From NCBI GenBank assembly GCA_958295785.1, contig OY282377.1, positions 2,060,394 through 2,124,393 on the forward strand: a DNA stretch of 64,000 bases, read 5' to 3'. Each line of letters starts with the position of its first letter. The stretch's first letter is position 1. This document shows, piece after piece, positions 5,472 to 20,110 of the stretch. The position numbers and the translations under genes are program-made. The notes beneath the pieces were generated by a model. That model saw only the letters and a list, made by a program, of their open reading frames with translations. It was not told where the DNA came from and did no database searches. The stretch comes from an uncultured Latescibacterota bacterium (lineage in GTDB: Bacteria; Latescibacterota; UBA2968).

Positions 5472-5857
5472 TATTCGCCGATTCGCACATTCAGACAGGC
5501 AAAAGGGCCCGCGCCCCTGCGTTTATTCGCATCGCTGCGTTGTAGGTTGCGCCTGTGCGTTGATGAATTGCTATCGTAGCTATACACTGTCCATCTATTA
5601 CTTGCTTCGCTGCGTGCGCCTGTGCGTCCATTCGGGCGTTGCGATCAGGAGTCATTTACCCAGCCCTGCCCCATCAGCCGTAGGGACAAGCCCCTGTGCC
5701 CGTCTTCGCACCCAACCTCCTCCAATGAATAAATACGTCTCCGATATGTAGGGACAGGCCCCTGTGCCTGTCCTCGCACCCAACCCTAGTAGCAGTCCGC
5801 TGTCCATAAATCGATGCCCTGGGGCGAAAGAGAAGGGACGGAAACCCGATAGCCGAC
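5472..5857. repeat. Repeat-rich gap with two family A palindromes
   Basis: No gene is supported. Two near-identical family A copies occur in tandem: GTAGGGACAAGCCCCTGTGC at 5681 and GTAGGGACAGGCCCCTGTGC at 5749. Each is followed by CG(T)C(T)TCGCACCCAACC. The rest has no recognised content. Confidence 0.6.
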
Positions 5858-5896
5858 AAAAAAACCGCCGCGCAGGTCGTCTCTGCGCGGCGGTTT
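5858..5896 (-). terminator. Strong Rho-independent terminator of the RND gene
   Basis: On the minus strand a 14-base perfect stem (AAACCGCCGCGCAG with CTGCGCGGCGGTTT) has a 7-base loop and runs into TTTTTTT. It lies 18 bases past the RND stop codon. Confidence 0.9.
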
Positions 5897-5913
5897 GCGT
5901 TGCGAAAATGTGC

Positions 5914-8900
5914 TTAGGCCCGTTTTGCCACGGCCACAACCCGCTTTGCATATCCGGACAAATCGTCCATCAGCGAGTAAATGGTCGGCAAGATGACCAG
6001 CGTGAGGACGGTCGAAATCGACAGGCCGGAAATGATCACCAGGCCGATGGGGCCCCAGCGCCGCGCATTGCCTTCCGCATTGCCGTAAATCATCGGAATC
6101 ACCAGCGGCGCGAGACCCAAAATGGTCGTGGTTGCGGTCATCAAAATCGGGCGCACGCGATCTTGCCCCCCGCGCAAAATCGCGTCTTTGCGATACAACC
6201 CCTGCTTGCGATACCGGTTGATGTGATCGATCAACACAATGCCGTTGTTGACCACAATGCCGAATAAAATGAGCAACCCATAAGTCGCGTTGCTATCCAT
6301 CGAGACGCCAAAGATGTAAAGCCCCAAGGCCACGCCGATGAAGGCAAAACTGATGGAAAACATGATCGTGAACGGGTGGATGTAGGATTCAAAGAGCGAC
6401 GCCATGATCAGATAAATGAGCAACGCGGCAAAAACCATCGTGAAATTGGTTTCCCCCTCTTCGGAAGACATATAGCGGAAGCGGCGGTCCATCTGCCAGC
6501 TATACCCTTCGGGCAAGGGGATCGCCCCCATGCGGTCGCGCATTTCAAAGCCGACCTTTTGCACCTCTGAGGCTTCTGTATTGGCAAATACGGTCACGGT
6601 GGACATGCGATCTTGACGTTCGATAGATTGAGGGCCTTTGGTCAATTCAAAATCCGCGAGGCTGGCAAATGAAATCATGCTGCCTTGGCTGCTTTCAAAA
6701 GACAGGGTTTTGAGTTGATCCAGCGTGGCGCGGTCCTCTTCCCGCAATTGCAGGGCAATGTCGATTTCCCCATCCGGCGTTTTGAACTTGCTGTTCCCGC
6801 GCGACCCCAATGCCGTGGCGACCGTGGTGGCGATTTGCTGAGACGAGAGGCCGTATAGTTGTGCGCGTTCTCTGTTCACGGAAACGCGAATTTCTTCCGT
6901 GCCACTCTCCAAGCTGGTCTCCACGTCGTGAATGCCCTCAATATCGTCCATTCGCAGGCGAATGTCTTCGGCCAAAATCGCCAGCACTTCCTGATTTCTG
7001 CCCTTGAGCTCCACGCCTACGCCCGTGCCACTGCTGCCCCCGCGCCTGAAGCCCGACTTAAACCGCACGCCGGGGATGTCTTTGGGCAGCAACGCACTCA
7101 CCCGTTTTTTGACTTCATCCGTGCTGAACGCGCTTTCTTCGGCGGATTTTAAGTACAGGTAAATCGTATTGCCGCGCCGATTGCTAAACCGCGTTTTGAT
7201 GGCTTCGATGTCGAGTTCTTCCTTGTGCGGCATCAATATGGCCTCGATTTGTTTGTACAGCGCGCGCGCGTCGTCAATATCGTAGGTGCGCGGGACTTCC
7301 ACTGTATAGCCCACCATGCGGTCGGGCTGATAGCGATAGCGCTGGACTTCAATTTTGCTAAAAATGTAAATGCCGGCAAAGAGAATGAAGGTGGCAACCA
7401 CAACCGTGGTCCAGCGATAGTGCAGCGTCTTGCCGATGATGCGCACGTACACGCCCTTGAGGCCGAGGTGCCGGAAGCGGAAATAGAGCGCGGCCACAAC
7501 GCCGACAAACACCCCCAGCGCGACCCAAACGCCCATTGCCACGGTGGAAAGCCCGCCCAAAAGCCACAGCGCGTTTTCCGCGAGCCACGCGCTGGATTCG
7601 GCAAGGCCCTCCCTGTGAATGAGGTATATCGCGCCCGCGCCAAATAACGCGCCCAGCCCAATTTTCAAAGCGAGATCTATGCGGGCGCCGGCATTTGAAA
7701 AGGCCCGAGAACAGGCCAGCGGAATGAGGGTCAGCGCGACGCACAGGGCCGCCACCACAGAAATGCACACGGTAATGGCAAAATCGCGCATCCACATCGT
7801 ATTGTACGATCCAGAAATAAAAATGAGGGGCACAAAAACGCAGATCGTCGTCAGCGCGGCCGCCAGCACGGGGATGCCGATTTCCCGGCTGCCCTCCATT
7901 GCTGCGGCGCGCATGCCGCGGCTTTCGTCAAAGCGTTTGCGATAAATATTTTCCAACGCCACGACAGCCGGATCGACCAGCATCCCAATGGCGACCATGA
8001 GGCCCATCATCGAGATCATGTTCAGCGTGATATTCGAGCCAAAAATTTGCCGCATCAAATACATGATCACAAAAACGCACAACACCGAAATGGGAATGGC
8101 CGACCCCACGATGAGCGTGCTGCGGAAGTTTCGCAAAAAGAAAAAAATGACGCCAATAGCCAGCATGCCCCCCAAAATAGCCGATTGCCCCAGGTCCGCG
8201 ATGCCCGCTGTCACGGCTTCCGATTGGTCTCGGCGCAGATGCAAGCGCAATTTGTCGCGCCCAATTTCATCTTGCAGGGCCTCGATCTCTGCCCTGACCA
8301 ATTTGCAGGTTTCCACCAAATTGGCGGTCGAGGCTTTGCGAATTTCCAACGAGACCGCATCGCGCCCGTCCATGCGTTCAAAATACCGCTTTTCCGGATA
8401 GTCGTAACTCACCTGCGCCACATCTTTTATCTCCAGACCATTGGGCAGGGTGAGATCGCGTATTTGATCCACTTCATCAAATTCGCCCACGGATCGAACC
8501 GCGAGGCGTTTTCCGCCCTCCGTGACATAGCCGCCCGACATGTTGATGTTGTTCGAGCGAATCGTTCTGTTGAGGGTGCGGATATCCAAGCCGTGCGCGT
8601 GCATGCGATTTTGATCCACATCGACTTTGAGTACCTTTTCATCGGCGCCTTCCATTTCGACATTGCCCACGCCGGGGATGCGCTGCAAGCGCGGCAAAAT
8701 GGTGGTTTTATACACTATGGCGAGTTCAGAGGGATCGTCGCCCAACCAAATCATGTGGTAGTCTAAAATTTCCCAATCTGACGAATCCCATTTGCGCGTT
8801 TCAATGCGTTCCAAATCTTCGGGCAACAAGTTGCGAACCTGATCGATGCGGTCGCGCACTTGAATCGACTTGATATCCATATCGGTACCGAAGTCAAATT

Positions 8901-9789: not shown

Positions 9790-9892
9790 CTTTGACCAGA
9801 GTACGCGATCAAAAGTGCGAATAGACGAATCAGCAGACCGAGAACGGGTCGTTTTTCAGGCCAGTTCACAGACGAATCTCCCTCCAACGCAT

Positions 9893-9927
9893 CGCAGGGA
9901 CGCGGCCCTCGTGCCCGCCCGAAAGCG
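9893..9927. repeat. Family A palindromic repeat
   Basis: The copy reads GCAGGGACGCGGCCCTCGTG followed by CCCGCCCGAAAG. It ends 15 bases before the restriction-modification gene. Confidence 0.6.
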
Positions 9928-9941
9928 AAATTGTATGTATT

Positions 9942-12900
9942 ATGAGCGACTTTTTCAACATCCTGTTTTCCGGAACACTCTTTGCCGACGATTTTCTGCG
10001 GCAAACTGTCGTTCACTCAGACGCCTATCGCGCATTGGACGATGCGGCACTCGGCGCCATAGAAAGCGCGTTCCGGGAAATTTTCGACCGATTCCCCACG
10101 GATCAGATGCCCAACGAGAGCCAGACCGAGGACGACTTGATCTGGCCCATCCTGCGGCTTCTCGGCTGGACCGAGCACCTGCGGCAACAAAACCTCGCGC
10201 CGCGCGGTCGATCTCATGTGCCCGATGGCCTGCTGTTTGCCGATGACGAGACAAAAGACCGCGCCAACACCTGTCAAGAGTCTCAACGCTATGCGTTTGG
10301 CCTCGCCATTGTCGAGTCCAAGCGGTGGCACACAACACTCGACCGCGGCGCCAAAAACGATGGCGAACGGATCGCGCCTTCAACGCAGATGCTCCGCTAT
10401 TTGCGGCGCGTTGATGATCTGACCCAGGGCAAGCTCCGCTGGGGTATCCTGACCAATGGCGCGAAGTGGCGGCTCTATGACCAAGGTGCCCGATCCGTCT
10501 CAGAACAGTTTTTTGAGATCGATCTCGCCGCGCTGTTCAACCTGCATTCTCAAAGCGATTTCACCCTCTCCGATGATGAAAGACGACACCATCTAAAGTT
10601 GTTTGTGCTGTTCTTTCGGCGGGAGAGTTTTGTCGGCGATCCCACGTTTCACCAATACGCGCTTGACGAAGGGCGTTTCTACGAAGAGCGCGTCGCCAAC
10701 AATCTTTCCGGGTTGGTCTTCGACGACATTTTTCCCCAACTCGTACGTGCCATTATCCAAGCCGCGGCCGATGCGTCGTTGCCCCATGTGCGCGATGCCG
10801 CCTTGACCCTGCTCTACCGCCTGTTGTTCATCCTCTATGCCGAAGACCGCGACCTGTTGCCCGTGCGCGATAGACGCTACGACGATTACAGCCTGCGAAA
10901 AGTGCGCGACGATGTGCGTGCGCGAAAAGAAAGAGGCGATACCTTCTCGGGCACCGCGGCCCGCTACTATCACGCCATTGACGATTTGTGCCGGATCATC
11001 GACAAGGGCGATTCCTCTATCGGTCTGCCGCCGTACAACGGGGGCCTGTTTGACCGCGAACGCATGCCGCTTTTATCGACTATCCGCCTCGGCGATCAGG
11101 TCGTGACCGATGTGATCGACGCCCTGTCCTTTGAGAAGACGCCCGAAGGCCGCCGCTATATCAATTATCGCAGCCTGAGTGTTGAGCAACTCGGATCGAT
11201 CTACGAGCGGTTGCTCGAACACGAGGTCATACGCGATGGCGATGGGGTTGTGAGCCGTCCAAACATTTTTGCGCGCAAGGAATCGGGTAGCTACTACACG
11301 CCGGATGGACTCGTGCGGCTGATTATCGAAAAGACGGTTGGCCCTTTGGTGCAGGACAGGATGGATGCCTTTGCCAGCAAGGTGGCAGAACTCAAGAGAA
11401 GCCGCCGCGCCAAGCGGCTCAAAATTGCCGAACTCAAGCGCGTTGATCCCGCCGTGAACCTGCTCGATCTGAAAATCTGCGACCCGGCGATGGGTTCAGG
11501 GCCTTTTTTGGTGGGCCTTGTGGATCATCTCGCGGACCGCGTGATTGCGGCCATGGCCGAAGACGCGATAGCGGGTTATGTCTCGCCGCTGACCGAGCGC
11601 GTTGACGCCATCCGCGACACCATTATGGAAAACGCCGAGATGAACGGCTGGGCCATTGACGCCGAAAAACTCGACGACCGCCACATCATCCGGCGCATGG
11701 TGCTCAAGCGGTGCGTGTATGGCGTGGATAAAAACCCGATGGTGGTTGAACTCGCCAAGGTGTCGCTGTGGCTCCACACGTTCACCGCAGGCGCGCCATT
11801 GAGTTTTCTCGATCACCACCTGCGCTGCGGCGATTCGCTCATCGGCCTGCGCGTCAAGGAGGCCACCGACGAGTTGAGCCGACTCGGCGGGTTGTTCGCC
11901 GCCAGCGCCATTGCCGGGGCCGAAGCCGCCACCGAGAGCATGCAGCGCATCGAGGACATGTCTGACGCGGATGTGGCCGAGGTGCGGAAATCCGCATCCC
12001 TATTTGGGCAAGTGGAGGAGACGACCGCCGACCTGCGCGGCCTGCTCGACTTTCTCGGCGGCTTGCGCTATCTGACCGCGGGGATGAAGAAACGAGAACA
12101 CGCCACTTATGAAGGGCCGCTGGTGACAACGCTCGGCAGACAGCCGGACAAGGCTTACGCGCTTTTGTCCCGAGGGCCCAATCATGCAGGCGATAGGGCA
12201 TCCGACATCGGCGACGCGGCTTGGTTGAGCTTTTCCGAGTTGTGGCGCGAGGCCAAAGCCATTGCCCACCGCGAGCGTTTTTTGCATTGGGAGGCCGCGT
12301 TCCCCGGCGTGTGGCGACACTGGCAAAACCAGCGTCCCCAAGGCGGCTTCGACGCGGTGATCGGCAACCCGCCGTGGGATCGCATCAAGCTACAGGAGGT
12401 CGAGTGGTTCGCTAACCGCGCGCCCGAATTGGCACGCGCTCCGACGGCAGCGGCGCGGCGAGCCGCCATCCAAAAACGCCGCAACCAGGGCGATCCGATA
12501 GCCGCCGCGTTCGACGCCGCAAAAGAACGGGCAGACAAACTCGGTTCACTGGTGCGCGCCTCTGGTCACTACCCCCTGCTCGGCGGCGGCGACATCAACC
12601 TCTATTCCCTGTTCGTGGAGCGGGCGATGCGTCTCGTAAAGCCGGACGGACTCATCGGCTTGCTCACGCCATCCGGCATCTACGCGGACAAAACTGCTGC
12701 CCGCTTCTTCAAATCCGTTTCCACCGCCGGGCACGTCGCCTGCGTGTTCGATTTCGAGAACAAGAAAATTTTCTTCCCGGATGTTCACGCCTCATTCAAG
12801 TTCTGCGCCCTCGTATTCGGCGGCGAGAAACGCGCGTTCGCCGAGACGCACTGCGCCTTCTTTCTCCACGACATCGCAACGGTCGACGATCCCCAACGTT

Positions 12901-14033
12901 GCTTCCCGCTGACGCCGGACGACTTCGCCCGCTTCAACCCAAACACCGGCACCGCGCCCGTCTTTCGCAACCGCCGCGACGCCGACATCACCCGCCACAT
13001 CTACGAACACCACCCCGTGCTCGTAGATCGTTCAGGGGATAAAGAGTACCGTGTTTGGCCGGTGCGTTACAACAGAATGTTCGATATGACCAACGACTCC
13101 GGCCTATTTCGCACGCGGGAAGAATTGGAAGAGCGGGAGGGCGCGTATCCCATCGGCGGCAATCGCTTCAATAGCCCGAGTGGAGAATGGTTTCCGTTGT
13201 ACGAGGGCAAAATGGTTCAGGCTTATGATCACCGCGCCGCCAGCATCGTCGTTAACCCAGAGAATCGACACCGCCCTGCACAATCGCAACAGGCGACATT
13301 GGAGCAACACAAAAACCCGGACTGGCTCCCAGAGCCTCGATTCTGGGTCAGCACAGACTCTTGCAAGTGGCCCAAAGGACTGGAATGGATCGTATCCTTC
13401 AAGCACGTTACAGCCCCGACCAATGTCCGAACAATGATTGCCTCTATCTTGCCACGCGCCGGTTTTGGCAACAGTTTGCCAATCCTATTACCCATCGCCG
13501 AAGACCGCGATGCCGTGCAAGCATACAAAGAGGGGGCGTATCTGCTGACCGCGAATTTGAACGCTTTTGCATTCGATTTCGTTACGCGCCAGAAAGTGCA
13601 AGGCCAAAATTTGAACTGGTTCATCGTCGAGCAACTCCCCGTTGTCCCGCCGGATCGATTCGCGTCCGTTCGCTTTGGCCCCAAAACCGCCGGGGAGATC
13701 GTCCGCGAAGCCGTGTTGGAACTCACGTACACCGCGCACGACATGGCCCCGTTCGCCCGCGACTTGGGCTATGTCAATGAATCGGGCGATGCGCTACCGC
13801 CTTTTGTTTGGAACGCGGACCGCCGCTTGCGTTTGCGCGCTCGCCTCGACGCGGTGTTTTTCCACCTCTACGGCGTTACGGACCGCGATGATGTGCGCTA
13901 TGTCTATTCGACATTTCCCATCGTCGAGCGGCAAGAAACCGCCGCCTACGGAACCTACCGCTCCCGCGACCTGTGCCTCGCTTACATGAACGCACTGGCG
14001 GCTGGCGATGCGGATGCTGATCCCGTTGTGTGA
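9942..14033 (+). CDS. Single-chain restriction-modification enzyme (Eco57I-type methylase with N-terminal nuclease)
   Basis: This 1363-residue protein combines cleavage and methylation. Residues 60-190 look like an HsdR_N/PD-(D/E)xK nuclease: VPDGLLF (Asp95) and AIVESKRW (Glu125, Lys127). Residues 440-640 hold a gamma-type N6-adenine methylase, with SGSYYTPDGLVRLI, the AdoMet-binding motif I DPAMGSGPFL (514-523) and GVDKNPMVVELAKVSLW. The catalytic motif IV NPPW is at 809-812 (Eco57I family). The C-terminal third, with segments such as EGKMVQAYDHRA, is the likely target-recognition region. The architecture fits type IIG/IIL-like enzymes that methylate and cut the same site. Start context is weak. 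The DUF2971-like gene follows 45 bases later on the same strand. It could instead act as the methylase-nuclease of a larger defence system. Confidence 0.85.
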   Translation: MSDFFNILFSGTLFADDFLRQTVVHSDAYRALDDAALGAIESAFREIFDRFPTDQMPNESQTEDDLIWPILRLLGWTEHLRQQNLAPRGRSHVPDGLLFADDETKDRANTCQESQRYAFGLAIVESKRWHTTLDRGAKNDGERIAPSTQMLRYLRRVDDLTQGKLRWGILTNGAKWRLYDQGARSVSEQFFEIDLAALFNLHSQSDFTLSDDERRHHLKLFVLFFRRESFVGDPTFHQYALDEGRFYEERVANNLSGLVFDDIFPQLVRAIIQAAADASLPHVRDAALTLLYRLLFILYAEDRDLLPVRDRRYDDYSLRKVRDDVRARKERGDTFSGTAARYYHAIDDLCRIIDKGDSSIGLPPYNGGLFDRERMPLLSTIRLGDQVVTDVIDALSFEKTPEGRRYINYRSLSVEQLGSIYERLLEHEVIRDGDGVVSRPNIFARKESGSYYTPDGLVRLIIEKTVGPLVQDRMDAFASKVAELKRSRRAKRLKIAELKRVDPAVNLLDLKICDPAMGSGPFLVGLVDHLADRVIAAMAEDAIAGYVSPLTERVDAIRDTIMENAEMNGWAIDAEKLDDRHIIRRMVLKRCVYGVDKNPMVVELAKVSLWLHTFTAGAPLSFLDHHLRCGDSLIGLRVKEATDELSRLGGLFAASAIAGAEAATESMQRIEDMSDADVAEVRKSASLFGQVEETTADLRGLLDFLGGLRYLTAGMKKREHATYEGPLVTTLGRQPDKAYALLSRGPNHAGDRASDIGDAAWLSFSELWREAKAIAHRERFLHWEAAFPGVWRHWQNQRPQGGFDAVIGNPPWDRIKLQEVEWFANRAPELARAPTAAARRAAIQKRRNQGDPIAAAFDAAKERADKLGSLVRASGHYPLLGGGDINLYSLFVERAMRLVKPDGLIGLLTPSGIYADKTAARFFKSVSTAGHVACVFDFENKKIFFPDVHASFKFCALVFGGEKRAFAETHCAFFLHDIATVDDPQRCFPLTPDDFARFNPNTGTAPVFRNRRDADITRHIYEHHPVLVDRSGDKEYRVWPVRYNRMFDMTNDSGLFRTREELEEREGAYPIGGNRFNSPSGEWFPLYEGKMVQAYDHRAASIVVNPENRHRPAQSQQATLEQHKNPDWLPEPRFWVSTDSCKWPKGLEWIVSFKHVTAPTNVRTMIASILPRAGFGNSLPILLPIAEDRDAVQAYKEGAYLLTANLNAFAFDFVTRQKVQGQNLNWFIVEQLPVVPPDRFASVRFGPKTAGEIVREAVLELTYTAHDMAPFARDLGYVNESGDALPPFVWNADRRLRLRARLDAVFFHLYGVTDRDDVRYVYSTFPIVERQETAAYGTYRSRDLCLAYMNALAAGDADADPVV

Positions 14034-14078
14034 GGATTTGTTGGGATAGGATATGAGATTGATGAAAGGAGGAACGGA

Positions 14079-15146
14079 GTGAACAACAGAGAAGAGAGGA
14101 TGGAAAAGCTAAAAACGCGCGTAGAGGAGGGAATGAGAGTACTTAAAAAAGACGAGTATCTCGGTTTGAGCTATGTAGATGAGATTGTGATTCCAGTGTT
14201 GAAGGAGGTGTTGCAAGACTTGTGCCTCGAAATCGAAGAACGTCATAAGCTTGATGAACCTGAAAGCTGGCAAGAAAATTTTGTCATTCACTACACAAGT
14301 ATCGATACTCTCGTTTCCATGCTTCAGCAAGAAGCAAAGAACAAACAGAATGCAGCAAAGAACGGACAGAATGAGGCGAAGGACGAGCAAGAATCTTCAA
14401 AGGACGAACAGAATGCTTCGTTGCGGCTGTACGACTCCGTACATTTCAACGATCCAGACGAGGGCAATTACTTTTTTCGCAATCTGGACCTGCCGAAAAA
14501 ATACGATTGGCTAGGCAAAAAAAAGGAATCCCACGCCTATATCGCCTCTTTTATTATTCCCGCTATTGAAAAAAATAGCGACAATCTCGTGTTTTGGTGT
14601 ACTTATGGGAAAGAGGGCGAAGGATGCTCTTTGAAGCTCCGCATCCCGAGGAATCGATTGCGGAAAGTTCTTTACGGTGCTGATGAGGATAAATGCACGG
14701 AGGAGATCCTACAGCGTATCTTGGATATTCTAGATAATGCTCTAAAGCCGTTGATAAGCATTGGGGAACGGTCACTGAAGGAAAAGGTCCGAGAAAAATT
14801 AGCAGAGGTCATTTGGAGGTATTTGGAAAAAATTCGCTACTTGTACAAGAGCGAAGCGTACAGTTATGAGCAAGAATGTCGTTTTGTTATTCCTGAATTA
14901 GATACTAAAAAAGACAAAATCTGCTTTGAGGATCAGGAGCAAAACAATTCTCCTGACGTAAGACACTACTATGAGCATGAGGATCTCAAAGTCAAAAATA
15001 TATTGACTACTGGCAGTTCAATCACGCTCGGCCCTCGTGTACCTTATCCCTACAATATGAGCTATTACATCAAAAGCCTGCTTACTAAAGCAGGCTTAGC
15101 TGGTCCGGAAATCAAGACCTCCAAAATATCCTATCGAAAACCTTGA
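14079..15146 (+). CDS. DUF2971-like protein with heptad repeats
   Basis: This 355-residue protein starts at GTG 14079, 7 bases after AAAGGAGG. DUF2971-like features are FVIHYTSIDTLVSML (about 68-82), RLYDSVHFNDPDEGNYF (about 118-134), DNLVFWCTYGKEGEGCSLKL (about 168-187), and YLYKSEAYSYEQECRFVI (about 250-270). The function of the family is unknown, although it is common in defence neighbourhoods. Four seven-residue units rich in Lys, Gln and Asn (about 85-112) interrupt the first domain and correspond to a 21-base tandem repeat. The DNA is more AT-rich than its neighbours, suggesting recent transfer. It follows the restriction-modification gene and ends tail-to-tail with the JAB-E1 gene, overlapping it by 35 bases. 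Confidence 0.7.
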   Translation: MNNREERMEKLKTRVEEGMRVLKKDEYLGLSYVDEIVIPVLKEVLQDLCLEIEERHKLDEPESWQENFVIHYTSIDTLVSMLQQEAKNKQNAAKNGQNEAKDEQESSKDEQNASLRLYDSVHFNDPDEGNYFFRNLDLPKKYDWLGKKKESHAYIASFIIPAIEKNSDNLVFWCTYGKEGEGCSLKLRIPRNRLRKVLYGADEDKCTEEILQRILDILDNALKPLISIGERSLKEKVREKLAEVIWRYLEKIRYLYKSEAYSYEQECRFVIPELDTKKDKICFEDQEQNNSPDVRHYYEHEDLKVKNILTTGSSITLGPRVPYPYNMSYYIKSLLTKAGLAGPEIKTSKISYRKP

Positions 15147-16581
15147 CGATGTTTCGCCAAATCCCGCGCCATATAGATTGCGGCGGTTCTTTGTGTTCTT
15201 CTTCCAAATAGGGTGGATTCTCCGCATCCCCCTGTGCGCGGCGTTGGCGGAAAGAGCAATGGGGATGGCATTCGTCATTGATGATTCGCGTCTCGGCGGT
15301 TACAAATTGGTAGTCCTGTTGCCGCACCAACGGCCACCACTCCTCGGCGAGCAGGTAGCGGAGCATCAAATTCACCTCCATTCCGGCAACGCCCAAGCTG
15401 AACGGAAATACATTTTGATTGCCGACCCGTTCTTCAGGCGGCAAGTTGTTGATATAAGACGGATCGTCGAGCGACCCGTCCAATTCCATGACCACCATGC
15501 TCGAATTGTATTGTTTGTTGCAACGCAGACATTGATGATAGGGCGTGACGATGTGTGCGCGCCAATGCGCTGAAAACAGGCTGTCTTTGCGGCGGTCTGT
15601 TTCCACTGCAATGCCGCCATCAATGACCGGAATCAGATGGGCGTGTGCGAGATAATTTAAGACATCGCGGGCAACGGGTCGGTCAACGCAACTGAAAAGG
15701 AGATCGCAATCCAATGCGGCCTTGTAAGCGGTGCTGTTGTGAACCGAAACCGGCAAGGGCGTTATTTGGATGCTTTCAGCGGTCGCATTGCGCTGCATCG
15801 CTCGCGCCGCCAAATCGACCTTTAATTGACCGATGTCATGTACTGTTCCGTAAAGCAAGCGGTCGAGATTGTGCTCTTCAACTTTATCGGGATCGATCAG
15901 GGTGACTTGTGCTATTCCGATTCGCGCCATCGCCTCGGCGACGATGCAACCGACGCTACCAAGCCCGACAATACCGACGTTCAAACGCGAGATAGTATTC
16001 TGCGCTTCGCGCCCCCATGTATCAAAAGTGCGCCTGAGTATCTCTCTCCGTAGTGGAGGTGGCGCGCTGTTGTCATTAAAAAAAAATTTGTAGGACTGCG
16101 GCCCGACAACGCGGACCTTCTCGCACCAATGGCGGCGCATCTGCCTGTCCTCTCTCTCCCAAAAACGCGCACTCCAATAACCGTCTGTTCCGATGGTCAA
16201 TCCCACCAACGGCAAGTCGGTCGCTCCCGCCGGATACGCCAGAACATCCCGCTCTGCTTCGACATCCGTAGCACTCATTCCCTGCCATCCATCGCTTGGA
16301 TGGCTGTGCATAAAGGCCAACCCCACTTTTTTGTCTCGCGCTATTTTCATCGCCCGTGCGAGGTAAGCTGGCTCGAAACTGGCGTTGCCGTGCAGAAGCC
16401 GCTCGCCTTTTTTAGGGAGAATGATTTCGTCTATCAGCGCGGCGCGGCGCAATTGTCCCGTGGAAGGACGCCACAGGGCAAAGCACAGATCTTCCTGCCG
16501 TTTGTCGCGCCGATAATGCTGCAACAGATGCTCGCTGGCGGTTGAATCCGCCTCTGCGGTGAGAACGGTCTCGAACCTCAT
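15112..16581 (-). CDS. JAB peptidase-E1 (ThiF-like) fusion protein
   Basis: This is the last gene of the ubiquitin-like operon. The start chosen is ATG 16581, which overlaps the E2 stop as ATGA, giving 489 residues. Residues of about 1-150 are a JAB/MPN deubiquitinase-like domain with HSHP (His92, His94), Ser103 and Asp106. The His-to-Ser spacing is one residue longer than the standard JAMM motif. Residues 195-445 are a ThiF/E1 adenylation domain: VGIVGLGSVG (203-211), LIDPDKVEEHNLDR (Asp230, Arg241), Lys254 and Asp300. CLRC (351, 354) and CHPHC (438, 442) probably bind zinc. No cysteine lies between residues 355 and 437, where ThiF-type catalytic cysteines usually sit. The expected role is adenylation of the Ubl C-terminus and removal or trimming of Ubl. 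Confidence 0.88.
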   Translation of the reverse strand: MRFETVLTAEADSTASEHLLQHYRRDKRQEDLCFALWRPSTGQLRRAALIDEIILPKKGERLLHGNASFEPAYLARAMKIARDKKVGLAFMHSHPSDGWQGMSATDVEAERDVLAYPAGATDLPLVGLTIGTDGYWSARFWEREDRQMRRHWCEKVRVVGPQSYKFFFNDNSAPPPLRREILRRTFDTWGREAQNTISRLNVGIVGLGSVGCIVAEAMARIGIAQVTLIDPDKVEEHNLDRLLYGTVHDIGQLKVDLAARAMQRNATAESIQITPLPVSVHNSTAYKAALDCDLLFSCVDRPVARDVLNYLAHAHLIPVIDGGIAVETDRRKDSLFSAHWRAHIVTPYHQCLRCNKQYNSSMVVMELDGSLDDPSYINNLPPEERVGNQNVFPFSLGVAGMEVNLMLRYLLAEEWWPLVRQQDYQFVTAETRIINDECHPHCSFRQRRAQGDAENPPYLEEEHKEPPQSIWRGIWRNIVKVFDRIFWRS

Positions 16582-16949
16582 ACGTCTTTCCAAATTCGTC
16601 GCAAGTGTTCGCTTATGTAGGCACCCATGTGCTTTGTCGGTAGCCGATCCCATATTTCCCCTGGGGGCCTACTCATTGCGACCCATTCGCGGCCATTTGC
16701 GTTGTATCTTTCAACCGCACCGCCTTTCCCGTCGTCAATTGGCGGCGTGACATGGATCCAATGAGGGGGATAATCGGGGTACCCGATTTCTTGGAAACTG
16801 ACGCCTACCGTGACCTTCTCGCCCCTGTGGGAACCGGTCTCGACCGTGTAGTTAAAAGCAACCACTTTTCCGTGCGGGCTATCAGACCACGATGTTTCAT
16901 ACCCCAAGGCTTCCAACTCAGCCTTTATCCGGTTGATGTCGTCGGACAT
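16578..16949 (-). CDS. E2/UBC-fold protein (prokaryotic E2 family E-like) without cysteine
   Basis: This 123-residue protein lies between the Ubl genes and the JAB-E1 gene, with which it overlaps by ATGA. The UBC core is visible: an N-terminal helix (INRIKAELEALGYE), strands (VVAFNYTVET, KVTVGVSFQEIGYPDYPP), the post-strand segment HWIHVTPPID and a C-terminal helix (GAYISEHLRRIW). E2 proteins carry Ubl as a thioester on a cysteine, but this protein contains no cysteine at all. It may act as a UEV-like scaffold, use another nucleophile, or belong to a branch that never forms thioesters. I place it near Pfam Prok-E2_E from memory of the motif and the gene order. A profile search would settle the family. 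Confidence 0.8.
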   Translation of the reverse strand: MSDDINRIKAELEALGYETSWSDSPHGKVVAFNYTVETGSHRGEKVTVGVSFQEIGYPDYPPHWIHVTPPIDDGKGGAVERYNANGREWVAMSRPPGEIWDRLPTKHMGAYISEHLRRIWKDV

Positions 16950-16960
16950 TTTTCTCTACC

Positions 16961-17209
16961 TTATGCTACTAGCGTGGGTTGATTGGGAATCGTGATGAAG
17001 CGGTTGTCTTCCTCCAGATCGATCCAGTCATTCCAGCCATACTGTCTCTTGTTGCCCTGAAGGAGGTAAGCCTCCGGATTACCGGGAATGGCACCTCTCT
17101 CTTCAGCGAGCTTCAGAATATCCCGTGCGACGACTCCCAGATACGGCATCGTCATTTCGATGCCGTTTGCTTGGAGCGAAAAGGAACGGCTCTCCTCTTT
17201 TTTTTTCAT
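16961..17209 (-). CDS. Ubiquitin-like (Multi_ubiq-type beta-grasp) protein A
   Basis: This 82-residue protein starts at ATG 17209 behind AGGAGG. An upstream in-frame start at 17239 lacks this site. It follows the bacterial Multi_ubiq pattern: SFSLQANGIEMTM strands, the helix ARDILKLAEERG, the loop PGNPEAYLLQG, and strands WIDLEEDNRFITI. The C-terminal tail is NQPTLVA, with no Gly-Gly. It is a tandem duplicate of the 77-residue gene upstream, about 70 percent identical in protein, with an evident DNA match that includes the Shine-Dalgarno region. It is expected to be the modifier or adenylation substrate for the JAB-E1 protein. The E2-like gene starts 11 bases later. Confidence 0.8.
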   Translation of the reverse strand: MKKKEESRSFSLQANGIEMTMPYLGVVARDILKLAEERGAIPGNPEAYLLQGNKRQYGWNDWIDLEEDNRFITIPNQPTLVA

Positions 17210-17250
17210 TTTATGCCTCCTGATAATTCTATCGGACATTATAGAAAAGG

Positions 17251-17484
17251 CTACGCCACCGGCGTGGGTTGGTTGCGAATCGTGATGAAGCAGTTGTCTT
17301 CCTCCAGATCGACCCAGTTATCCCAGCCATACTGTCCCTTGTCGCCCTGAAGGATATAATCCTCCGGCTTGCCGGGGATGGCACCGCTCTTTTCTGCGAG
17401 TTCCAAAATATCGTGCGCGACGACTCTCGCAGTTTGCATCGTCATTTCGATGCCGTTCACCTTCAACACAAAAGAAGTTGCCAT
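17251..17484 (-). CDS. Ubiquitin-like (Multi_ubiq-type beta-grasp) protein B
   Basis: This is the first gene of the operon, 77 residues, with AGAAGGA 7 bases before its ATG. The fold signs match protein A: SFVLKVNGIEMTM, helix AHDILELAEKSG, loop PGKPEDYILQG, strands WVDLEEDNCFITI, tail NQPTPVA. It carries one cysteine (EDNCF) where A has arginine. The pair looks like a recent duplication that diverged mainly in the first loop (MPYLGV versus MQTARV). Having two Ubls could give two modifiers or one plus a decoy. It sits directly behind the promoter at 17569-17597. Confidence 0.8.
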   Translation of the reverse strand: MATSFVLKVNGIEMTMQTARVVAHDILELAEKSGAIPGKPEDYILQGDKGQYGWDNWVDLEEDNCFITIRNQPTPVA

Positions 17485-17568
17485 TTTTTTTCCTTCTGAT
17501 AATGGGATTGAGAAACTCCCGGTTCTCCAAGCTGTCTAAAAAAGAATGAACACCCGATCTGTAAGAAA

Positions 17569-17597
17569 AATATAGCCGATGGCACTGGGCATGTCAA
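17569..17597 (-). promoter_or_regulatory. Near-consensus sigma-70 promoter of the Ubl operon
   Basis: On the minus strand TTGACA (17597-17592) and TATATT (17574-17569) are separated by exactly 17 bases. Transcription would start about 75 bases before the Ubl-B gene. A 57-base block containing this promoter is duplicated at 19851-19907. Confidence 0.8.
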
Positions 17598-17798
17598 GGA
17601 TGGGAGAGTGCCGAAGAAACATTGGGCGTTCTTTAGAACGAATCTACGAATCAGTGAATCGAAACGCACAGTGGTTGGGCGGGGACTTAGAAGCCCTAAC
17701 ATAAAGAGTTGACATGGATTTGTGAGAGGCCGATTTTCTTCTCAGCCCAACCCTTACAACGTCCATGCCCGGCATCTTTATCGGGCGAGGAGGAACAA

Positions 17799-18194
17799 AT
17801 GACCAAACCACTCGTGAGCGATGAACTCTGGGAAAAGGTCCAACCCCTTTTGCCGGTTCCCAAGCCGAGACGATTCCGCTACCCCGGACGTAAGCGCATT
17901 GATGACCGCAAGGCGTTGACCGGCATTCTATTCGTCCTGAAGAGCGGCATCCCGTGGGAGCAGTTGCCCCAAGAGATGGGGTGGGGTTCCGGGATGACAT
18001 GCTGGCGTCGTCTGAAGGAGTGGCATGAAGCAGGCGTGTGGGAGCGGCTTCATCATCTGCTGTTGTCCAAACTGCGAGCGGCCGATGGCCTGGACGGGTC
18101 TCGTGCCTGCGTGGACAGCGCCTGCCTGCGTGCGGTAGGTGCTGGGGGGAAAAACCGGCCCCAATCCCACAGACCGCCGCAAGCCCGGGCGTAA
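17799..18194 (+). CDS. IS5-family transposase, N-terminal frame
   Basis: The start ATG at 17799 follows GAGGAGGAACAA, giving 131 residues. The frame shows the DUF4096-like N-terminus typical of IS5 transposases (LVSDELWEKVQPLLP, FRYPGRKRIDDRKALTGILF, SGIPWEQLPQEMGWGSGMT) and the first catalytic aspartate region (SRACVDSACLRAVGAG). At about 18143 a GGGGGGAAAAA run marks where the homology jumps to the frame one base ahead. This frame then ends at an unrelated TAA at 18194. Full transposase needs a +1 (or -2) frameshift at that run. Confidence 0.85.
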   Translation: MTKPLVSDELWEKVQPLLPVPKPRRFRYPGRKRIDDRKALTGILFVLKSGIPWEQLPQEMGWGSGMTCWRRLKEWHEAGVWERLHHLLLSKLRAADGLDGSRACVDSACLRAVGAGGKNRPQSHRPPQARA

Positions 18195-18609
18195 GCATCA
18201 TGGGACCACCGATGCCAACGGGCTACCTCTGGCCGCGATTGTGACCGAGGCGAACCGGCCAGAGGTGACGCAATGGTTGCCATGGGTGGACGCCGTGCCT
18301 GCGGTCAGAGGCAAACGTGGTCGTCCGCGCCGCAGACCCCAACGGCTGTATGCAGACCGTGCCTATGACTCGAAGGCATGCCGGAAGGCCCTGCGTGCGC
18401 GCCACATCTGGCCGGTGATCGCCCGGCGGGGTACAGCGCATGGCAGCGGGTTGGGCGTGTACCGGTGGGTCGTTGAGCGGACGCTGGCCTGGCTCCGGCA
18501 GTTCCGCAGACTGCGGGTGCGCGACGAGCGCAGAGCGGACATCCATGAGGCGTTCCTCTCCATCGGCTGTTCACTCCTCTGTTTCAGACGCTTGATTTCT
18601 TTATGTTAG
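18139..18609 (+). CDS. IS5-family transposase, C-terminal frame
   Basis: This frame has no start of its own with a ribosome-binding site and is probably reached by frameshifting near 18143. It continues the DDE domain: KTGPNPTDRRKPGRKHH, ANGLPLAAIVTEANRPE, RPQRLYADRAYDSKACRKAL (second aspartate), YRWVVERTLAWLRQFRRL (catalytic glutamate) and RADIHEAFLSIGCSLLCFR. The stop at 18609 lies within the right inverted repeat. If frameshifting does not occur, the element is defective. Confidence 0.8.
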   Translation: MLGGKTGPNPTDRRKPGRKHHGTTDANGLPLAAIVTEANRPEVTQWLPWVDAVPAVRGKRGRPRRRPQRLYADRAYDSKACRKALRARHIWPVIARRGTAHGSGLGVYRWVVERTLAWLRQFRRLRVRDERRADIHEAFLSIGCSLLCFRRLISLC

Positions 18610-18818
18610 GGCTTCTTAATGTTAAAAACCACATTGTTAAAAACTACATCTGCATCATCTTTATCATTGAGATGATATTCACCGTTCCCCTCAGAGAAAT
18701 TGTATCCCAATGTAACGCCATAATTTTCACTGAGAAGGGATCTTTGTAAAAGTGGCCCCTTTTCGACCCAAACTACATTCTGAAGGTTATACACTTTGTT
18801 TCGGTATTCATAGATCAT
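18606..18818 (-). CDS. Small protein of unknown function, 3' end altered by IS insertion
   Basis: The start ATG at 18818 has CAGGAGAG 6 bases upstream, giving 70 residues (MIYEYRNKVYNLQNVVWVEKG ... in short). No family is recognised. The last four codons and the stop lie in the insertion sequence end. Reconstructing the pre-insertion DNA by joining the two TTA flanks, the frame would have continued about 15 codons (SPPNHCAFRFTDS) to a TAG. The DNA is AT-rich compared with the core genes. It is preceded on the same strand by the 133-residue unknown gene. Confidence 0.5.
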   Translation of the reverse strand: MIYEYRNKVYNLQNVVWVEKGPLLQRSLLSENYGVTLGYNFSEGNGEYHLNDKDDADVVFNNVVFNIKKP

Positions 18819-18932
18819 GTTTCTCTCCTGTGGAATGATGTTTTTTAGCAACCTGCCTTGTCAGACGCCTGCCGGTCCGTGCAGACGTGACACCCCTTTA
18901 CAAGCAGGTGTTTCGGCTTATCTCCTACTTGC

Positions 18933-18970
18933 AAATCAGGCAACCCATTTTGTGACAGGTTGCCTGATTT
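18933..18970 (+). terminator. Hairpin terminator
   Basis: A 13-base perfect stem (AAATCAGGCAACC with GGTTGCCTGATTT) encloses a 12-base loop, and T residues follow on the plus strand. The plus-strand T-tract suits transcription leaving the insertion sequence. On the minus strand it lies after the gene at 19019-19420. Confidence 0.65.
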
Positions 18971-18997
18971 TTCTCAAGGCTTAAAAGGTGTTATTGC

Positions 18998-19033
18998 TTT
19001 TTTGCCCTCTTTTTTGCCCTACTTTTTTGCCCT
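18998..19033. repeat. Three tandem TTTTTTGCCC units
   Basis: Units of about 12 bases repeat three times and include the stop codon of the 133-residue gene. Expansion or contraction here would change that protein's C-terminal lysine run. Confidence 0.6.
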
Positions 19034-19420
19034 ATTGAGAGTATACAATGGCTCCCCAACTTTTCTCCAATATCTATAATCAGCAATTTCTTTGTCCGTA
19101 GGGGCTTTCACATTGAACACACATTTTGCTGAATAGACATGGTTTCCTTCTTCCGTGGCATCCTCGTATCTAAGCCAAAGTTGCAACCGGTGTCTTGGCG
19201 AAGGAGGAGTGCAACAAAGAGTAGAAAAATCGGTCACAGACGAAACATCTTTGAGATTTTTCTCAATGTCAAAAACACCATAAAGCATAGGCCCTGACCA
19301 ACCATAAGGATGGGTCGCTCTTTTTTCTTCTTGCCAAATCAAAAAGAAACGACCTTTAGTGTTTCTGAGCACCAAAAAAGCATCATCAAAGAAAATCTCA
19401 TCATTCATCTTGAATGCCAT
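19019..19420 (-). CDS. Protein of unknown function
   Basis: This 133-residue protein starts at an ATG preceded by GAAAGGAGAACAGT, a good ribosome-binding site. Aromatic-rich beta segments are visible (DDAFLVLRNTKGRFFLIWQE, LQLWLRYEDAT, NHVYSAKCVFNV), followed by a basic C-terminal tail that ends inside a tandem repeat. No known domain is recognised. The DNA is AT-rich. It lies downstream of the Ubl remnant and may once have been under the duplicated Ubl-type promoter at 19854-19882. Confidence 0.6.
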   Translation of the reverse strand: MAFKMNDEIFFDDAFLVLRNTKGRFFLIWQEEKRATHPYGWSGPMLYGVFDIEKNLKDVSSVTDFSTLCCTPPSPRHRLQLWLRYEDATEEGNHVYSAKCVFNVKAPTDKEIADYRYWRKVGEPLYTLNRAKK

Positions 19421-19479
19421 ACTGTTCTCCTTTCAATTTCATGTTTTGGATCATTTTTCCCCACCGGTGAAAAAGAAAA

Positions 19480-19531
19480 TGCTACTGATGTAGATTGGTT
19501 GCGAATCGTGATGAAGCGGTTGTCTTCCTCA
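19480..19531 (-). pseudogene. Remnant 3' end of a third ubiquitin-like gene
   Basis: The minus strand encodes EEDNRFITIRNQSTSVA, matching the ends of Ubl A (EEDNRFITIPNQPTLVA) and Ubl B (EEDNCFITIRNQPTPVA). The DNA matches base for base over most of the stretch. The upstream part of the gene is missing and replaced by a HicB-like fragment. The NQ-x-T-x-VA tail is conserved in all three copies. Confidence 0.75.
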
Positions 19532-19597
19532 AGCCTTGGCGTCATAGCCGCCTTCAATCGCCTCGGTCACTTCAAAAATAATTTCGCTTGGTCTCAT
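19529..19597 (-). pseudogene. N-terminal scrap of a HicB-like antitoxin
   Basis: The 22-codon frame MRPSEIIFEVTEAIEGGYDA (plus KA) resembles the first strands of HicB/DUF1902-like antitoxins (EIIFEVTE..EGGYxA). It ends at a TGA formed exactly where the Ubl remnant begins, so it is a recombination joint, not an intact gene. Confidence 0.5.
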
Positions 19598-19664
19598 TAT
19601 GGGATCCCCAGTTTGTGGGCGTATATTCGATTACATTTTGACCCTGTGCGATAGCTGTTACACT

Positions 19665-19765
19665 CGATTGATCGTCGGGCAGACCCGCCGCTTCCCGCAC
19701 ATCCACTTGCCCACCACGTCGGCAATCAGGCGGGTGCGGTATTCGCTCAACAATTCGATCAGCAC
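19665..19765 (-). pseudogene. Frameshifted C-terminal scrap of a type I specificity subunit (hsdS)
   Basis: The minus strand encodes LIELLSEYRTRLIADVV, then after a one-base shift VDVREAAGLPDD. Together these match the common HsdS C-terminal ending (LxEYRTRLIADVVTGKxDVREAAxxLPD). No other hsd gene is present nearby. Confidence 0.65.
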
Positions 19766-19850
19766 AGCCTATTTGAAAGCCAAGGCCCCAGATGCCTTGT
19801 CGCAATTGCTTCGGTGTGATATATTGGCTTTTTCGAAACATGGCGAACAA

Positions 19851-19907
19851 AAAAATATAGCCGATGGCACTGGGCCTGTCAAGGATGGGGGAGTGTCGAA
19901 GAAACAT
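19851..19907 (-). repeat. Second copy of the Ubl-operon promoter block
   Basis: This 57-base block matches 17566-17622 with about four differences and keeps TTGACA (19882-19877), a 17-base spacer and TATATT (19859-19854). It faces the hsdS, HicB and Ubl scraps. With the Ubl remnant it marks the outer limits of a former second Ubl cassette. Confidence 0.75.
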
Positions 19908-20110
19908 CCTTTTGATCGACAAAATCAAAACACAAAATTATCACAGTACGCAACAAAACGCATAGACACAGCCTGCGACAAGTGAATCTACGAATTGCAT
20001 TTTCGGGCGGGCACGGGGGCACCGCCCCTACGAAGGTGGTCGGGTGGAGTTGGGTTCGTCTATTCGTCTATTCGCACACACCATAGAACTTAAAACCCAC
20101 TGGACACTTT
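19908..20110. repeat. Intergenic repeats before recG
   Basis: Contains the ACGCATAGACACAGCCTGCG block (also near 1622), a family A palindrome (GCGGGCACGGGGGCACCGCC, about 20008-20027) and tandem TTCGTCTATTCG (20058-20078). No gene is supported. Confidence 0.6.

Follow-up and report, generated by a model that had tools for sequence, protein, structure and literature searches.

A putative ubiquitin-like protein-tagging operon, a distant cousin of Bub, in a defence island of an uncultured Latescibacterota bacterium

The window that we analysed, a stretch of 64,000 nucleotides from an uncultured Latescibacterota bacterium, contains a compact set of genes for ubiquitin-like (Ubl), E2-fold and JAMM-E1 proteins. 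The question is what kind of system these genes form, and how a ubiquitin-like relay could proceed with an E2-fold protein that has no cysteine. A sequence-only reading had proposed four minus-strand genes behind a near-consensus promoter, with the E2 and JAB-E1 genes coupled by an ATGA overlap, and this layout was confirmed. The gene order is Ubl1-Ubl2-E2-JAMM/E1: the BubA-like Ubl1 (17251-17484, 77 aa) ends in NQPTPVA and the BubA-like Ubl2 (16961-17209, 82 aa) in NQPTLVA, and they are followed by the BubB-like, Cys-less E2-fold protein (16578-16949, 123 aa) and the BubCD-like JAMM-E1 fusion (15112-16581, 489 aa), all four on the minus strand. The overlap of the last two genes is 4 nt, and the remaining gaps are 41 nt (Ubl1/Ubl2) and 11 nt (Ubl2/E2). 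The promoter is of the sigma-70 type (TTGACA-N17-TATATT, minus strand, 17569-17597) and matches the consensus at 11 of 12 positions. Judged by its sequences, the operon appears to be a bacterial ubiquitin-like protein-tagging system that is a distant cousin of Bub.

To place the operon, GTDB genomes were scanned with an alignment of the JAMM-E1 protein; 122 of them encoded a relative, and 80 loci were collected. The clade set used below comprises 89 collected loci, including eight actinobacterial plasmid loci. The window JAMM-E1 matched ThiF in Pfam with 107.6 bits and Citrobacter BubCD (PDB 9ea4) with E-values of 5e-23 for the sequence alone (phmmer) and 1e-33 for the profile. The BubCD match spans the JAMM domain and the E1 core; MoeB and MccB were also among the E1 matches. 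The JAMM motif is intact (E30/H92/H94/S103/D106), as is the site of the adenylation core (approximately residues 186-412), and the JAMM E/H/H/S/D and ATP-site residues are retained across nearly all of the 89 loci. Window D106 aligns with a JAMM aspartate; by the numbering of the alignment, this would be the residue mutated in the deposited D104A structures. The protein is indeed a JAB-E1 fusion, as had been proposed.

For the Ubl and E2-fold proteins, the profile searches were less productive. Neither window Ubl matched any family in the Pfam scan, Multi_ubiq (PF14452) included, and the window E2 reached 17.4 bits with Prok-E2_E (PF14462), below the gathering cut-off of 25. Among the relatives, 10 of 36 Ubls matched Multi_ubiq and 19 of 49 E2s matched Prok-E2_E at E-values up to 0.01. 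Structure prediction, for which the Ubl and E2 alignments were built without the sequences of plasmid records, supported both assigned folds. Ubl2 was predicted (AF2, 32 aligned sequences) as a beta-grasp protein with pLDDT 85; in Foldseek, the top PDB hit was Citrobacter BubA (9ea8_B, prob 1.00, E 2e-3), followed by multi-ubiquitin proteins and ubiquitin. Ubl1 is a paralogue of Ubl2 (69% identity). The E2 model (pLDDT 94) was most similar to Ubc12 and then to Citrobacter BubB. The Foldseek scores are modest, with E-values above 0.001 for both the Ubl and the E2 models. A comparison of the E2 family with canonical BubB profiles in hhalign gave 95% and an E-value of 2.4e-8, with WxxxSR aligned with RWSR. 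Since dN/dS between Ubl1 and Ubl2 is about 0.4-0.6, both Ubls seem to be kept under moderate constraint. The start of Ubl2 is backed by AGGAGG, and an alternative 92-aa reading from 17239 is possible.

Because the closest solved proteins by sequence and fold are Citrobacter BubCD, BubA and BubB, we assign the operon, on sequences and models, to the Bub type (row 6e of Iyer et al.) and not to a separate class. The earlier reading had listed Bub among other classes; it turned out to be the nearest relative, with the operon being a diverged Bub. In the E1 tree, six canonical Bub proteins and the 89 family members lie on the two sides of a long branch with a support of 100, and the window E1 does not group with the canonical BubCD-type E1s. 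The nearest relatives by E1 identity are found in Nitrospirales (L015, 74%) and Dehalococcoidia (L016, 71%), followed by L017 (57%). Relatives occur in about a dozen phyla, namely Nitrospirota, Chloroflexota, Acidobacteriota, Bacteroidota, Pseudomonadota, Actinomycetota, Gemmatimonadota, Patescibacteria and others, and one was found in an archaeal bin. Nearly all loci keep the order Ubl, E2, JAMM-E1, with single-domain Ubls, Ubls of two or more domains, or Ubl-E2 fusions; two separate Ubl genes were present only in the window operon among the collected loci. No close relative of the window JAMM-E1 was found in the other genomes of the order, and only one other genome among 64 of the phylum has one. 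A phage origin was rejected: no relatives were found in viral contigs, and phage records match the E1 core only partially.

The same genome carries a canonical Bub operon elsewhere (5594-8203 of locus L002, about 2975593-2978202 of contig C1), consisting of a Ubl, an E2, a JAMM-E1 with 306 bits to BubCD and a DUF6527-like fourth gene. The same kind of IS transposase adjoins the canonical and the window operon. With a canonical operon alongside the diverged one, this host provides a natural setting in which to compare the two.

The same components (Ubl, E2 fold, E1 and JAMM) would also make up a canonical cascade, in which E1~Ubl and E2~Ubl cysteine thioesters precede a lysine isopeptide bond, and such an ordinary relay was implied in the sequence-only reading. 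The window E2 contains no cysteine, and none is conserved among 49 E2s; the sole invariant E2 residue, in sets of 49 and 44 sequences, is S93 of the W-x-x-x-S-R motif. In the E1 half, the family-conserved cysteines are C298 in a core strand (FSC-VD), C351 and C354 of a CxxC motif, and C442, of which the last three look like a zinc site. No further E1-half cysteine was conserved above 80% among the 89 loci, and none of the conserved ones is a free crossover-loop cysteine; C33 (72 of 89 loci) belongs to the JAMM half. With no catalytic cysteine in E2 or E1, a thioester relay is largely refuted by sequence, and we consider the canonical cascade extremely unlikely.

In the conjugated ubiquitin-like modifiers that have been studied well, the last residue is glycine, and transfer mostly runs via cysteines. 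In the window clade, all 80 Ubls with a readable domain end have a V-S/A/G tail (with a single V-G), which is located at the C-terminus in 64 cases, directly before an E2 domain in 13 and before 2-5 further residues in 3. Where the Ubl is directly joined to an E2 domain, the residue after the tail is D in 11 of 13 cases. The tails of the six canonical Bub loci are QTEG, QREG, QTDG and VNNG, i.e., a single G stands at the corresponding site, followed by E or D if the protein is fused or extended. This pattern in the clade and the canonical loci suggests cutting after the last tail residue.

On the basis of homology, folds, motifs, gene order and the island insertion, we conclude that the operon is probably a Bub-type cassette for ubiquitin-like conjugation that has diverged and lies in a defence island gained by horizontal transfer. 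In such a cassette, the E1 half would adenylate either Ubl at its C-terminal alanine, and the E2-fold protein would position the activated Ubl. The transfer would proceed without a cysteine thioester, either via the invariant serine S93 of the E2 or with the target attacking the adenylate directly. The idea of an oxyester comes from this invariant serine and from the chemistry of canonical Bub, which uses oxyester intermediates. The JAMM half would take the Ubl off again and, in relatives with a Ubl-E2 fusion, would cut after V-S/V-A. With two Ubls, the system may produce two distinct marks or chains that contain both. A more specific version, which we put forward tentatively, is that this widespread clade runs a relay without a catalytic cysteine and with a modifier ending in Ala or Ser, combined here with two separate Ubls and a DUF2971-type effector.

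Two other uses of the same proteins have to be weighed. In a sulfur or small-molecule carrier of the MoaD/ThiS/CysO or MccB type, the E1 would activate the Ubl tail to transfer a thiocarboxylate, an amino acid or a nucleotide, and the JAMM domain would trim it. The MoeB-like CxxC of the E1, the absence of a catalytic cysteine and the E1 matches to MoeB and MccB agree with this, and so does the fact that MccB adenylates a peptide end other than Gly. However, the tail is V-A and not G-G, an E2 fold is present, the relatives are associated with CapP, and the island has no rhodanese, cofactor or peptide-biosynthesis genes. Since these partner genes are absent, the sulfur-carrier reading was dropped, and we regard a carrier function as highly unlikely. 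Alternatively, the system may not conjugate at all: the Ubls would bind or oligomerise, the E2 would be a non-catalytic RWD-like reader, and the E1 and JAMM would regulate assembly or act elsewhere. The E2 domain of type 6e has been termed inactive and RWD-like (Iyer et al. 2006, PMC1779556), multi-ubiquitin proteins form filaments (PDB 9d59, 9d5b), and Ubl-E2 fusions hold both parts in one chain. Against this, the adenylation site and the JAMM motif are almost invariant across the 89 loci, and the extreme C-terminus of the Ubl is strongly conserved, which fits a chemically used C-terminus; we therefore judge the non-conjugating alternative unlikely and prefer conjugation.

The defence island that harbours the operon was acquired horizontally. 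Comparison with congeners revealed a 10.3-kb insertion (9790-20110) between a ytfJ-like gene and recG, which are about 6-13 nt apart in most congeners, and this supports the defence-like setting that had been proposed. The neighbouring restriction-modification gene (plus strand, 9942-14033) in the same island was verified as well: it encodes a type IIG-like enzyme with PADLOC matches at 5e-96 and 2e-80. Three congeners (L113, L114, L115) carry a different ytfJ-recG insert of 1.6-1.8 kb with genes for 431-aa and 149-aa proteins; PADLOC gave no match on the insert of L114. The ytfJ-recG junction may therefore be an insertion hotspot. Just upstream of the operon promoter lies an IS element (17689-18616) with 19-bp perfect terminal inverted repeats. 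Beyond it, seen from the operon, are the C-terminal part of a decayed third Ubl (minus strand, 19471-19602, with three stops inside the match) and a duplicate of the promoter region (minus strand, 19851-19907; 57 nt, 95% identical), indicating a history of Ubl gain and loss at this site. The relics in this region (19420-19640 and 19851-19907) also include a fragment resembling a HicB-type antitoxin. Two small A+T-rich genes (41% GC; 18606-18836 and 19019-19420) without a family match lie between the IS element and the promoter copy. No RNA families were found in the 9-21 kb part of the window.

Convergent to the operon, with a 35-nt overlap with the end of the E1 gene, is a gene for a 355-aa DUF2971-like protein (plus strand, 14079-15146); the sequence-only reading had listed this gene as a neighbour but had missed the convergent, overlapping arrangement. 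Its previous assignment to DUF2971 was weak in Pfam (E 0.12) for the window protein and gained support from the L016 homologue, which matches DUF2971 at E 0.0024, and from a match of the window protein to PADLOC PDC-S31 at 1.6e-7. The sole match in a PDB sequence profile search for the DUF2971 fold was due to chance and was discarded. Homologues occupy the same convergent place in L015 (43% identity) and L016 (39%); searches of plasmids and viral contigs returned none. The conservation of these proteins is below that of the corresponding E1s (71-74%), as might be expected for an effector; this comparison covers three linked loci only. As an effector or partner of the system, this gene is the strongest candidate. 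It also contains short 21-nt tandem repeats (14335-14416) that code for a K/N/Q/E-rich stretch.

The most likely role would be anti-phage defence or a stress response. Of 131 proteins encoded upstream of relatives, 37 belong to the M78 peptidases and 33 have a capP match in PADLOC; CapP is a DNA-damage regulator previously described for CBASS and Bub operons (PMC13373217). No CapP, CapW or CapK/S was found beside the window operon. The sequence-only reading had counted Bub among classes acting in phage defence; protection against phage has not been shown for Bub, the closest characterised system (PMC13373217). With its V-S/V-A tail and Cys-free E2, a clade spread over about a dozen phyla would make the minimal chemistry of ubiquitin-type tagging testable, and the window system is paired with a new candidate effector.

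Compared with known systems, the operon shares an E1, an E2 fold, a JAMM domain and putatively also Ubl or Ubl-like conjugation with Bil (BilA-D) and type II CBASS (Cap2/Cap3). In both of these, the E2 has a catalytic cysteine and the JAMM is separate from E1, whereas the window E2 lacks cysteine and its JAMM is fused to E1; unlike in type II CBASS, the window E1 is fused to JAMM and not to E2. CBASS further needs a CD-NTase, and none was found among the scanned island genes. Type 6e of Iyer, Burroughs and Aravind (2006, PMC1779556) has 1-3 Ubl domains, a JAB-E1 fusion and an inactive E2/RWD-like domain that is sometimes encoded by its own gene between Ubl and JAB-E1. Its Ubl count, RWD-like E2 and JAB-E1 fusion recur here, but the window has two single Ubls as separate genes and no metal-binding protein Y (DUF6527-like). 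Indeed, a DUF6527-like profile built from six proteins found one ORF in the 89 loci (L077, 2 kb off and on the opposite strand) and none in the window. The two separate Ubl genes and the missing DUF6527 also distinguish the operon from Citrobacter Bub (PDB 9ea4, 9ea5, 9ea8, 9eae, 9eav), as do the V-A tail instead of the canonical G, the zinc-type CxxC in E1, where canonical proteins have S/T and S/D, and the score of its E1 against BubCD (84 bits, compared with 306 for the canonical copy in the genome). With Bub it has in common the Ubl, the Cys-less E2 fold with W-S-R, the JAMM fused N-terminally to E1 and the gene order, and the relatives of the window clade carry the same CapP-type regulators.
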